From: Flavobacterium sp.
GTDB lineage: Bacteria; Bacteroidota; Bacteroidia; Flavobacteriales; Flavobacteriaceae
Length of the DNA stretch: 64,000 nt
NCBI RefSeq assembly: GCF_025352425.1
Contig: NZ_JANXTI010000026.1
Location: 1 to 64,000 of the forward strand
Reading direction: 5' to 3'
Part shown: piece by piece, positions 4,076-60,964 of the stretch
Layout of the letters: every line of letters begins with the position of its first letter
Position numbering within the stretch: position 1 is the stretch's first letter
Notes under the pieces: model-generated
What the model was told of the DNA's origin: nothing
Seen by the model: only the letters and a program-made list of their open reading frames with translations
Database searches by the model: none
Made by a program: the position numbers and the translations under genes

Positions 4076-5005
4076 ATGGCAAACAAAATTGAAGTTAAAG
4101 ATTTATTAGAAGCAGGTGTTCATTTTGGACACATGACTCGTAAGTGGGATCCAAACATGGCCCCTTACATCTATATGGAACGTAATGGAATTCACATTAT
4201 CAACCTATACAAAACAGCAGCAAAAATTGAAGAGGCTAATGAAGCCATGAAAAAAATTGCCGCATCAGGTAGAAAAATACTTTTCGTAGCTACCAAAAAA
4301 CAAGCAAAAGACATCGTTGCTGAAAAAGCACTAGCCTGTAACATGCCATACATCACTGAAAGATGGCCAGGTGGTATGTTGACAAACTTCGTTACTATCC
4401 GTAAAGCCGTTAAAAAAATGGCTACTATTGATAAAATGAAGAAAGACGGAACCTTTATGACATTGTCTAAAAAAGAACGCCTTCAGGTTGATCGTCTTCG
4501 TGCAAAATTAGAGAAGAACTTAGGTTCTATCGCTGACATGTCAAGACTTCCTGCTGCATTATTTGTAGTGGATATCAAAGCTGAACACATCGCCATAAAA
4601 GAAGCACAAAAATTAAACATTCCAGTTTTTGCAATGGTTGATACTAACTCTGATCCACGTGAAGTAGATTACGTTATTCCATCCAATGATGATGCTTCAA
4701 AATCAATTGATAAAATTTTATCTCTAGTAACTGCTGCAGTTATTGACGGATTGGCTAACAAAACTTCTGATAAAGAAGGTGATGAGGCACAGGAAGTTGA
4801 CGCAGTGGCTGAAGTTACTACACAGGAAGTTGTAGCGGAAGCTGCGGCTCCAGTTGTCGAAGAAGCGGCTCCGGTTGCTGAAGAGACCGCTGCTCCTGAA
4901 GTAGAATCTGTTGTAGAAGAAACTCCAGAAGTGGAAACAGTTGTAGAAATGGAAGCTGCTCCGGAAGTAGAAGCAGAAGCTACTGAACCTAAAACTGAAG
5001 AATAA
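4076..5005 (+). CDS. rpsB: 30S ribosomal protein S2
   Basis: 309 residues. The start at ATG 4076 (MANKIEVKDLLEAGVHFGH) matches the family; an in-frame TTG 33 bases upstream would add residues no S2 has. Core motifs include HMTRKWDPNMAPYIY, ERWPGGMLTNF and the LPAALFVVD strand. After residue 225 there is a long acidic Ala/Glu/Val tail built from EEAAPVAEE-like repeats, an extension common in Bacteroidetes S2. The 160-base leader between rpsI and this start could hold an S2 or operon leader structure, but I could not define one. Confidence 0.97.
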   Translation: MANKIEVKDLLEAGVHFGHMTRKWDPNMAPYIYMERNGIHIINLYKTAAKIEEANEAMKKIAASGRKILFVATKKQAKDIVAEKALACNMPYITERWPGGMLTNFVTIRKAVKKMATIDKMKKDGTFMTLSKKERLQVDRLRAKLEKNLGSIADMSRLPAALFVVDIKAEHIAIKEAQKLNIPVFAMVDTNSDPREVDYVIPSNDDASKSIDKILSLVTAAVIDGLANKTSDKEGDEAQEVDAVAEVTTQEVVAEAAAPVVEEAAPVAEETAAPEVESVVEETPEVETVVEMEAAPEVEAEATEPKTEE

Positions 5006-36510: not shown

Positions 36511-36524
36511 GTTTCTATTTTGAA

Positions 36525-36623
36525 GCTATTCCGGCTATACGTTTCAATCTTTTAAGAATTGATGTGCCTTCGCTAACGCTCAGGCCAATCCTTAAAAGGA
36601 TTTCCACTGCTATCCGGGCTAAA
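36525..36623 (-). repeat. Dispersed TAGCCCCGAT repeat, copy B
   Basis: On the minus strand: TAGCCCGGATAGCAGTGG, an AAATCCTTTTAAGGATT hairpin centre, and the end TATAGCCGGAATAGCTTC. The boundary words match copies C and D. Confidence 0.75.
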
Positions 36624-36649
36624 AATCACAAACCAAATGAATTTTTCAC

Positions 36650-36982
36650 TCATGTATCCTGAGCTTCTCGGTTATCCGGGTTGTCCTGCGTGATGTATTT
36701 CTCCGTGTTTTTCGTATTAAAAGCTCGTTCATCTTCGGGAGAACGATACGCGCTTTCTTTTCCTGATGTCTCTGCCGGACCTTCGGAAAAATTATTTTCA
36801 TCGTGCTCATTATTTGAAGTATTGTCGTTGTTATAATACCGATATGGATCAGTGTCCGACTTAAAATCTTCCGTCTTTCTCTCCGAATCAACATTTAAAC
36901 GTGCCATGTCTATGTGTTTTTCTTTTTCATTCTGTGGATTACTGTCGTCATGACCATAATTCCCATTGCCATTGTTTTCCAT
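36650..36982 (-). CDS. Hypothetical disordered acidic protein
   Basis: 110 residues from ATG 36982 (MENNGNGNYGHDDSNPQNEK). It is rich in Asn, Asp, Glu and Gly, with no hydrophobic core, so it is predicted to be disordered. No domain or partner is recognised. The upstream ATG-like starts add an AT-rich leader and are less likely. It may be a stress or hydrophilin-like protein, but that is a guess. Confidence 0.55.
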   Translation of the reverse strand: MENNGNGNYGHDDSNPQNEKEKHIDMARLNVDSERKTEDFKSDTDPYRYYNNDNTSNNEHDENNFSEGPAETSGKESAYRSPEDERAFNTKNTEKYITQDNPDNREAQDT

Positions 36983-37159
36983 AATTTGATTATTAAATAA
37001 TTGTAAAATTAGCATCTTTACGGGCTGGGCGAATTACAAGATTTTTATAATTACTTACACTGTTTAGCATTCAAACAGTTCGGTTTCCAATCCCAGTAAG
37101 AGGTCGATATTCTATAATATTTAGAATAAATCGTATAAGCTGGTTAAATCCCCGTAAAA

Positions 37160-37446
37160 TAAATTTGTACTACAAGTTAGTTCGTGAGTAACAAATTTCT
37201 GTCGGTACGAAGACGAGGGATGACAGTTCGTCGAGGAGGCTGTAACGGGGCATGCACTTTCCATCCCTTCGTGCATGTAATAACCTAACGTCGGCACACT
37301 TGTGGATTACCAGGTCGGCTTTTGCTAGCAAAAATACCTGAAGCCCACTGGGCTTCCTCCTCTTAATCTCAAATGTGGAAACCGGTCAGCAACACGGCGG
37401 TTCGACAGAAAACTAAAGTCCTCGTTTCGGCGGGGACTTTTTTTAT
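37160..37446 (+). ncRNA. Candidate structured non-coding RNA with own promoter and terminator
   Basis: No protein frame fits here, yet the stretch is GC-richer than its surroundings and full of paired segments. TAAATTTG (37160-37167) is a -7 promoter box. The putative RNA starts near 37174 and ends at a strong terminator (AAGTCC...GGACTT then T8, 37416-37446). Helices: GCATGCAC/GTGCATGT (37250-37277), TTTTGC/GCAAAA (37320-37333), GAAGCCC/GGGCTTC (37340-37356), and a long-range GAGGAGG/CCTCCTC (37233-37239 with 37356-37362). It matches none of tmRNA, RNase P, SRP RNA or a riboswitch I know. Confidence 0.6.
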
Positions 37447-41006: not shown

Positions 41007-41102
41007 GGTAATGTCATAGTTAAAGGTAGTAAAATAATTGCCTAAAAATTTTGTCGTTTGAGTTTAAGTAGTTACATTTGTACTACCATTAAATCATACA
41101 GG

Positions 41103-41969
41103 ATGAATATTATACAAGTTTACAAACAGTTCCCAACACAACAAGATTGCATCAACCATTTAGAATTAGTAAGATGGAACGGCGAACCTACCTGCCCTTA
41201 CTGCAATTCTAAAAACCAATCTCCTATGCCAAAGGAACAACGTTTCCATTGTAATACTTGCAACACTTCTTTTAGTGTTATTGTTGGAACGATATTTCAC
41301 AAAACAAAAATTGATTTACAAAAATGGTTCTTGGCTATTTCTTTAGTGCTTAATGCAAAAAAAGGATATAGCGCACGTCAGTTAGGACGTGATTTAGAAG
41401 TAACAAAAGACACCGCTTGGAGAGTGTTTATGCAGATAAGACGCGCTTTAGTTGACGATAAACAATTAATGACGGGAATTGTTGAAGCTGATGAAACTTA
41501 TATCGGAGGAAAAGATAAAAACCGCCACAATGATAAAAAGAAACCTGGCGGACAAGGTGGCGCAAACCACACGCCTGTTATTGGAGTTTTACAGCGTGAT
41601 GGTAAGGTTGTGGCTAAAAAAAAATGACACCACTAAAAAGACCTTAAAAAGGTTTTTACACGATAACGTTGCCAAAGGTTCTGTTCTTTCAACAGACCAA
41701 CACAAAGGTTATGCAGGAATGAATAAATGGTACGACCATAAAACTGTAAATCACAATATCGGACAGTATGTTAAAGGAATTGCGCACACAATACTTTAGA
41801 AGGATTTTGGTCTTTATTCAAAAGAGGTATTTACGGACAGTACCACCAAATTAGCGATAGATATTTAGACAAATACCTTGTAGAGTTCTGTTTCAGATAC
41901 AGCAACCGTTCGGTTGATACAAATGTATTATTCGCTCAAATTATAAATAAATCAGTAAATCTATATTAA
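41103..41969 (+). pseudogene. IS1595-type (ISXO2-like) transposase, two frameshifts
   Basis: The frame starts at ATG 41103 (MNIIQVYKQFPTQQDCINHL). A zinc ribbon CPYC...CNTC is near 33-60, and the DDE-type domain begins EADETYIGGKDKNRHNDKKK. The frame breaks at a run of nine A (41616-41624), where eight would continue to NDTTKKTLKRFLHDNVAKGS. It breaks again at CACACAATACTTTAG (about 41787), where one more A gives NTLEGFWSLFKRGIYGQYHQ up to a stop at 41969. The two indels cancel. Either the gene is decayed, relies on slippage, or holds homopolymer errors. Confidence 0.9.
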
Positions 41970-60860: not shown

Positions 60861-60937
60861 GAGCATATTCCCGCTTTTCATTACAATCTTTTACTTCGCT
60901 ACGCTTCGCAAAAGGATTTTCATTTCAATCGGGGCTA
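60861..60937 (-). repeat. Dispersed TAGCCCCGAT repeat, copy D
   Basis: Minus-strand reading: TAGCCCCGATTGAAATGAAA, a CCTTTTGCGAAGCG centre, and the end AAAGCGGGAATATGCTCC. It lies between nrdB and nrdA and would be in any nrdBA mRNA. Confidence 0.85.
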
Positions 60938-60964
60938 GGGTTTACCCGTCAAAGGCTATATGTT

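Follow-up and report, generated by a model that had tools for sequence, protein, structure and literature searches.

A putative new family of compact pseudoknotted non-coding RNAs in Flavobacterium, other Bacteroidota and Variovorax

The stretch of DNA analysed here, referred to as the window, comprises 64,000 nucleotides of contig NZ_JANXTI010000026.1 from Flavobacterium sp. (assembly GCF_025352425.1). A structured RNA lies in it at 37172–37443 on the forward strand, with an RNase E/G gene as its left neighbour and, on the right, alkB (PF13532) and exonuclease/GIY-YIG genes. Between the RNase E/G gene and the RNA, a hydrophilic protein of 121 aa without a Pfam match is encoded at 36650–37015 (−), and two overlapping frames at 41058–41799 (+) resemble one transposase gene split by a frameshift, presumably of the IS1595-like type. 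The AlkB protein of the window had no relatives in viral contigs. A previous sequence-only reading of this DNA had described the RNA as lacking a protein frame, and indeed no open reading frame of at least 60 aa was present inside the RNA region. The features of the locus are as follows:

37160–37167 (+): candidate −7 promoter box TAAATTTG
37172–37443 (+): predicted transcript of the structured RNA, its ends placed by the promoter box and the terminator
37196–37204 (+): P1, 5' strand, pairing with 37403–37411
37216–37221 (+): pseudoknot, 5' strand AGGGAU, pairing with 37263–37268
37228–37233 (+): P2, 5' strand, pairing with 37395–37400
37239–37242 (+): P3, 5' strand GCUG, pairing with CAGC at 37387–37390
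37247–37249 (+): P4, 5' strand, pairing with 37284–37286
37250–37278 (+): P5 hairpin, 37250–37257 pairing with 37271–37278
37263–37268 (+): pseudoknot, 3' strand AUCCCU, in the P5 loop
37284–37286 (+): P4, 3' strand
37290–37294 (+): P6, 5' strand, pairing with 37382–37386
37301–37373 (+): 73-base insertion in the P6 loop
37382–37386 (+): P6, 3' strand
37387–37390 (+): P3, 3' strand CAGC
37395–37400 (+): P2, 3' strand
37403–37411 (+): P1, 3' strand
37415–37443 (+): intrinsic terminator (stem 37415–37440) with T run

The RNA belongs to a family of structured RNAs, and we collected 84 distinct copies. When 60 related genomes were searched at the nucleotide level, the RNA core turned up in three relatives (G008, G033 and G034) as well as in the genome of the window; most of the other matches were a dispersed repeat of about 40 bases, and a match in G053 that spans only the terminator part was left out. 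A core pattern then gave 39 stretches in contigs from one genome per species. We kept 32 of these and dropped seven (L038, L040, L049, L050, L051, L054 and L058) that by eye were without the upstream core; with the model, the dropped matches score at most 15.3 bits (L054, E 0.021). The kept carriers belong to Flavobacterium, Flavobacteriaceae, the Chitinophagaceae relatives Paraflavitalea, Pseudoflavitalea and Niastella, a Catalimonadaceae bacterium, an uncultured Bacteroidetes and Variovorax.

The first alignment comprised 32 sequences without that of the window, and was made with MAFFT from sequence only and fitted to no structure. With the pseudoknot included, 94.3% of its cells were paired and 21 of 37 pairs had changed on both sides; none of 500 shuffles reached these values, and structures slid along the alignment paired 30.5–43.0%. 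A covariance model built from these 32 sequences, without the window, matched the window at 37186–37420 with 119.3 bits (E 2.6e-32), and the best chance score among 20 control regions was 12.1 bits. Larger alignments of 64 and 84 sequences, which lean towards the model because they were fitted to it, had 93.1% and 93.4% of cells paired, and in both 33 of 40 pairs had changed on both sides; for the 84 sequences, either value was reached by 0/500 shuffles and slid structures gave 29.6–38.9%. The check for covariation among homologues that the sequence-only reading had proposed thus gave a strong signal, and the RNA family and its shared fold can be regarded as well supported by this comparison.

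The common fold predicted in this way shows a closing stem P1, the helices P2 and P3, a three-way junction of P3 with P4/P5 and P6, and a pseudoknot that links the P1/P2 joint with the P5 loop. The comparative structure has seven helices, pseudoknot included, in agreement with the earlier estimate of at least four local helices. A long-range pairing of 7 bp had also been noted; the pairing exists and corresponds to P1, which covaries in the homologues, but it is 9 bp long. All six pseudoknot pairs are kept in 84/84 sequences, in the variants ACGGGU/ACCCGU, AGGGAU/AUCCCU, ACGGAU/AUCCGU and ACGGGC/GCCCGU. The window, with AGGGAU/AUCCCU against ACGGGU/ACCCGU, retains the pseudoknot through compensatory changes. 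P4 is the weakest helix (81.6% of cells paired) and occurs as GGG/CCC, GAG/CUC, GGC/GCC, GGA/UCC and AGG/CCU. Near-invariant unpaired stretches include CGAAG, GUCAG, UGUAA, UUUCC and ACAC, of which UUUCC lies in the P5 loop together with the pseudoknot strand.

Single-sequence folding energy gave z −1.9 for the window RNA, with 6 of 200 shuffles folding as well, and z −0.88 for its antisense strand. Six homologues had z values from −1.58 to +0.88, none being significantly more stable than shuffles. The minimum-energy fold showed most consensus helices in two of them (Variovorax L168 and Chitinophagaceae L185) and departed partly from the consensus in the other four. Since the folding energy of the window RNA is only modest, the case for the fold rests on the covariation in the 32, 64 and 84 sequences.

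The match in the window is 235 nt long, compared with 159–172 nt in the other 83 copies. The window RNA seems longer because of the 73-base insertion in the P6 loop, which is absent from its homologues and is flanked by 6-bp direct repeats (TGTGGA at 37301–37306 and 37374–37379). The size of about 270 nt given earlier includes these 73 bases. P6 is still able to form around the insertion and can be extended by CAC 37295–37297 with GUG 37375–37377. The inserted sequence carries a dispersed repeat of the genus, ACCTGAAGCCCACTGGGCTTCCTCC..., which recurs at seven further places in the genome of the window and in several relatives. This repeat has an inner palindrome, GAAGCCCACTGGGCTTC; other copies are present in, for example, L016, L024 and L029.

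In Flavobacterium, the −7 promoter consensus is TAnnTTTG, as given in PMC9723704. The box TAAATTTG at 37160–37167 fits this consensus and would therefore place the transcript start near 37172. By itself the string carries no significance, occurring 13 times in the window against 13.4 expected, and a scan for sigma-70-type promoters found none at the RNA start site in the window. The same box stands immediately before P1 in the near homologues L122 and L123. The promoter proposed in the earlier reading is plausible. The terminator proposed there is recognizable: an 11-pair stem at 37415–37440 is followed by T's.

A terminator-like end, consisting of a stem and a T run, can be recognized at many copies. 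Among 67 non-Variovorax copies, a run of at least four T's starts no more than 3 nt from the match end in 35, and five T's lie near the 3' end in 39, compared with a fraction of 0.277 at random places. In a second subgroup, of 18 copies, the closing stem is followed immediately by T's in 17. Nine of 11 distinct Variovorax copies examined have no five-T run within 60 nt. The flanks outside the modelled P1 pair better with their own partner than with swapped ones (mean −10.0 versus −6.3 kcal/mol), and own-flank pairing lies beyond the 5% tail of swapped flanks in 23/84 copies.

The position of the RNA relative to genes was counted at 60 non-Variovorax loci, with genes predicted by a simple ORF caller; the counts include loci that are related to each other. 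The downstream gene was codirectional at 42, whereas the other 18, which include the window, L122 and L123, have it on the opposite strand; an upstream gene in the same direction lay within 130 nt at 31. These numbers bear on the possibility that the RNA is a cis-acting riboswitch or attenuator, in which the core would sense a metabolite or an electrophile and P1 or the outer stem with the T run would act as a ligand-gated terminator. The many conserved unpaired bases and the pseudoknot resemble those of aptamers, the closing stem ends in a T run, pirin starts 23–26 nt past the match in several Flavobacterium loci, and the codirectional downstream genes fit this explanation for part of the loci. 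Nevertheless, the downstream genes are of a wide variety, the closing stem belongs to the core rather than to a competing fold, and the downstream gene is so often on the opposite strand that the RNA is not simply a riboswitch; judged by position, it was not classified as one. We therefore consider a cis-acting switch unlikely.

Three settings recur among the copies. Fifteen of 61 non-Variovorax copies sit 4–24 nt past the stop codon of an NAD(P)H-binding (PF13460) gene; a regulator of GAF/sigma-54 type, judged by eye, often lies upstream, and pirin follows in Flavobacterium. Variovorax copies lie near cupin, OsmC, GST and AhpC/TSA genes; one carrier is Variovorax paradoxus NBRC 15149 (L036). 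The third setting is that of free-standing copies in Flavobacterium, the window included. The 18-copy subgroup lies near fasciclin, SIMPL, DUF202, SpoIIAA-like, Ku/LigD, SRAP or SbcD genes, with single copies near Ku/LigD, SRAP or SbcD. A small protein starting MN.(N/K)(N/F)LAGLGGA directly adjoins the RNA in L112 (about 4136–4567), L115 (3748–4179) and L053; its L112 copy has no Pfam match.

The RNA of the window had been thought to start a repair island. This is not borne out by its near homologues: alkB and the exonuclease/GIY-YIG genes are not neighbours in L122 and L123. As the left neighbour RNase E/G is common to the three loci and the right neighbours are not, the repair genes are no conserved partner. 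An alkB-like protein was seen by eye near L207, which is in the same genome as L073. A locus-sharing test confined to the 17 loci of the second subgroup gave 7/136 pairs of RNA loci versus 0/190 control and 2/340 mixed pairs. Several of the seven pairs resemble synteny of related loci, and the test is therefore no evidence for function. The stress-gene context may merely reflect the islands in which the RNA travels.

The positions past the ends of genes also bear on a conserved base-pairing sRNA, or a 3' element that stabilizes mRNA, without a specific binding partner. The RNA does sit 3' of genes in many loci and has terminator-like ends, but its most conserved bases are in the paired or pseudoknotted core elements, which exceeds the needs of a plain stabilizer or seed. 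This explanation appears distinctly improbable to us.

The RNA was found in 34 of 398 genomes of Flavobacterium, the genus of the window, in 16 of 100 genomes of the genus of a Variovorax carrier and in 12 of 195 of the family of the Paraflavitalea carrier, in searches whose strict filters lose weak matches and whose group names follow the named loci. In the family sample of the window, the only carrier among 299 genomes was the window itself; the phylum sample (2/395) gave the window plus a weak match of 26 bits (G964/L124), which was left out as probably due to chance. Likewise, the family (1/130) and phylum (1/200) of the Variovorax carrier and the order of the Catalimonadaceae carrier (1/118) contained only the respective carrier. 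As sampled, the distribution is patchy and spans two phyla. In a quick tree, the Variovorax copies formed one clade (support 0.94), and the Flavobacterium copies were spread over several clades, interspersed with Chitinophagaceae copies. This arrangement suggests horizontal transfer of the RNA, although the tree was made from a short alignment and some supports are low. In viral contigs, neither the exact core pattern nor the subgroup pattern had a match; a shorter pattern had one (L248), which was rejected since the model does not recognize it. One homologue queried against phages had no match, and the single match in plasmids was to a 1.3-Mb Variovorax record.

Several genomes have more than one copy: G170 has six, and G269, G1090, G1141 and G1379 have two each. 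In G170, L105 contains two copies and L106, L107 and L108 one each, about 275–290 nt past a fasciclin-domain gene. The G170 copies (L104–L108) look as if they were mostly duplicated together with the fasciclin gene. Copy number is one of the points to be weighed for a ribozyme that would cut or join RNA, either its own or another, and would lie within a locus that is mobile or co-transferred. Such an activity would suit the near-invariant unpaired bases within an intricate pseudoknotted core, the patchy occurrence across phyla with up to six copies per genome and the lack of a common adjacent partner gene. Against it, we recognized no conserved cleavage site outside the core, the ends vary, and ordinary gene duplication, together with the fasciclin gene, accounts for the G170 copies. 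A ribozyme is thus quite unlikely in our estimate.

The RNA was also compared with known classes. ARAGORN predicted neither tRNA nor tmRNA genes in the window, and a scan of the whole window with Rfam 15 gave no match over the RNA at the gathering score; its two matches were both Flavo-1 (RF01705) and lie outside the new RNA. At E ≤ 10, only weak matches were obtained over the RNA, mostly to the terminator part, the best being Leu_leader with 23.5 bits (gathering score 50). Twelve homologous loci scanned at E ≤ 1 gave four matches, which all fall within the L097 flank and do not reach the gathering score. The Rfam comparison suggested by the sequence-only reading has been made for the window and 12 homologous loci, and the outcome agrees with its proposals that the RNA is new and does not fit the tmRNA, RNase P, SRP RNA, cobalamin or TPP classes. 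We found no description of the RNA in openly licensed PMC papers; the available sections of PMC11109978, PMC8632094 and PMC6429828 hold a single mention of Bacteroidetes, which is unrelated.

A free-standing structured RNA near stress genes might also be the RNA part of a known ribonucleoprotein, either a Y RNA of Ro60 (TROVE) or a non-coding RNA belonging to a retron or to another reverse-transcriptase defence system. TROVE was present in 5 and a reverse transcriptase in 17 of 40 carrier genomes, both were absent from the genome of the window, and Rfam gave no match. Ro60 or reverse transcriptase as an obligate partner is not supported, both candidates were rejected, and this explanation is highly improbable.

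Taken together, we lean towards a new family of compact pseudoknotted non-coding RNAs, made as discrete transcripts that would act in trans. The window copy would be transcribed from its own sigma-A-type promoter, and beside some stress operons the RNA would be produced as the 3'-terminal part of the mRNA from upstream. Its rigid core may bind a protein common to all hosts, or a small ligand, and this binding would adjust expression or RNA turnover under stress; no dedicated protein partner appears to be encoded beside the RNA. A bolder version, possible but doubtful, is that of an autonomous RNA machine, a ribozyme or ligand sensor, that is tied to no single host gene, spread horizontally with stress-protection islands between Bacteroidota and Variovorax, and was re-used as a stress RNA in free-standing form in Flavobacterium. 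Its position apart from genes, its occurrence in two phyla and the absence of a dedicated protein partner make the RNA a good candidate for a new ribozyme, a ligand-binding RNA or an RNA–protein particle. A covarying pseudoknot in a complex fold that matches none of 4227 Rfam families is rare, and the alignment and consensus structure are sufficient to start probing, mutation and pull-down experiments.

Among known systems, Flavo-1 is likewise a dispersed RNA of flavobacteria. Its two matches in the window, at 36524–36624 (−) with 71.2 bits, about 0.5 kb to the left of the new RNA, and at 60863–60940 (−) with 66.1 bits, are on the other strand; unlike the new RNA, Flavo-1 is one elongated hairpin of 76 positions, and it has no match over the new RNA. 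PMC9723704 describes the Rfp of Flavobacterium psychrophilum as intergenic regulatory RNAs, some of them strongly folded and conserved. By description, they share with the predicted transcript of the new RNA an intergenic flavobacterial origin. Standalone riboswitch-like or attenuator RNAs (compare the HMP-PP riboswitch) also have a structured core ending in a terminator-like stem and T run, but the new RNA is often without a codirectional downstream gene. Orphan free-standing structured RNAs of bacteria are exemplified by raiA, OLE and ROOL. The new RNA differs from these in hosts and size, and the window region had no Rfam match to them at E ≤ 10; they share with it a conserved, pseudoknotted or multi-helical, non-coding nature, a patchy distribution and a function that is unclear or just emerging. 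The novelty concerns the RNA family; structured RNAs of the orphan type are already a known kind, and the mechanism may prove to be an ordinary one.
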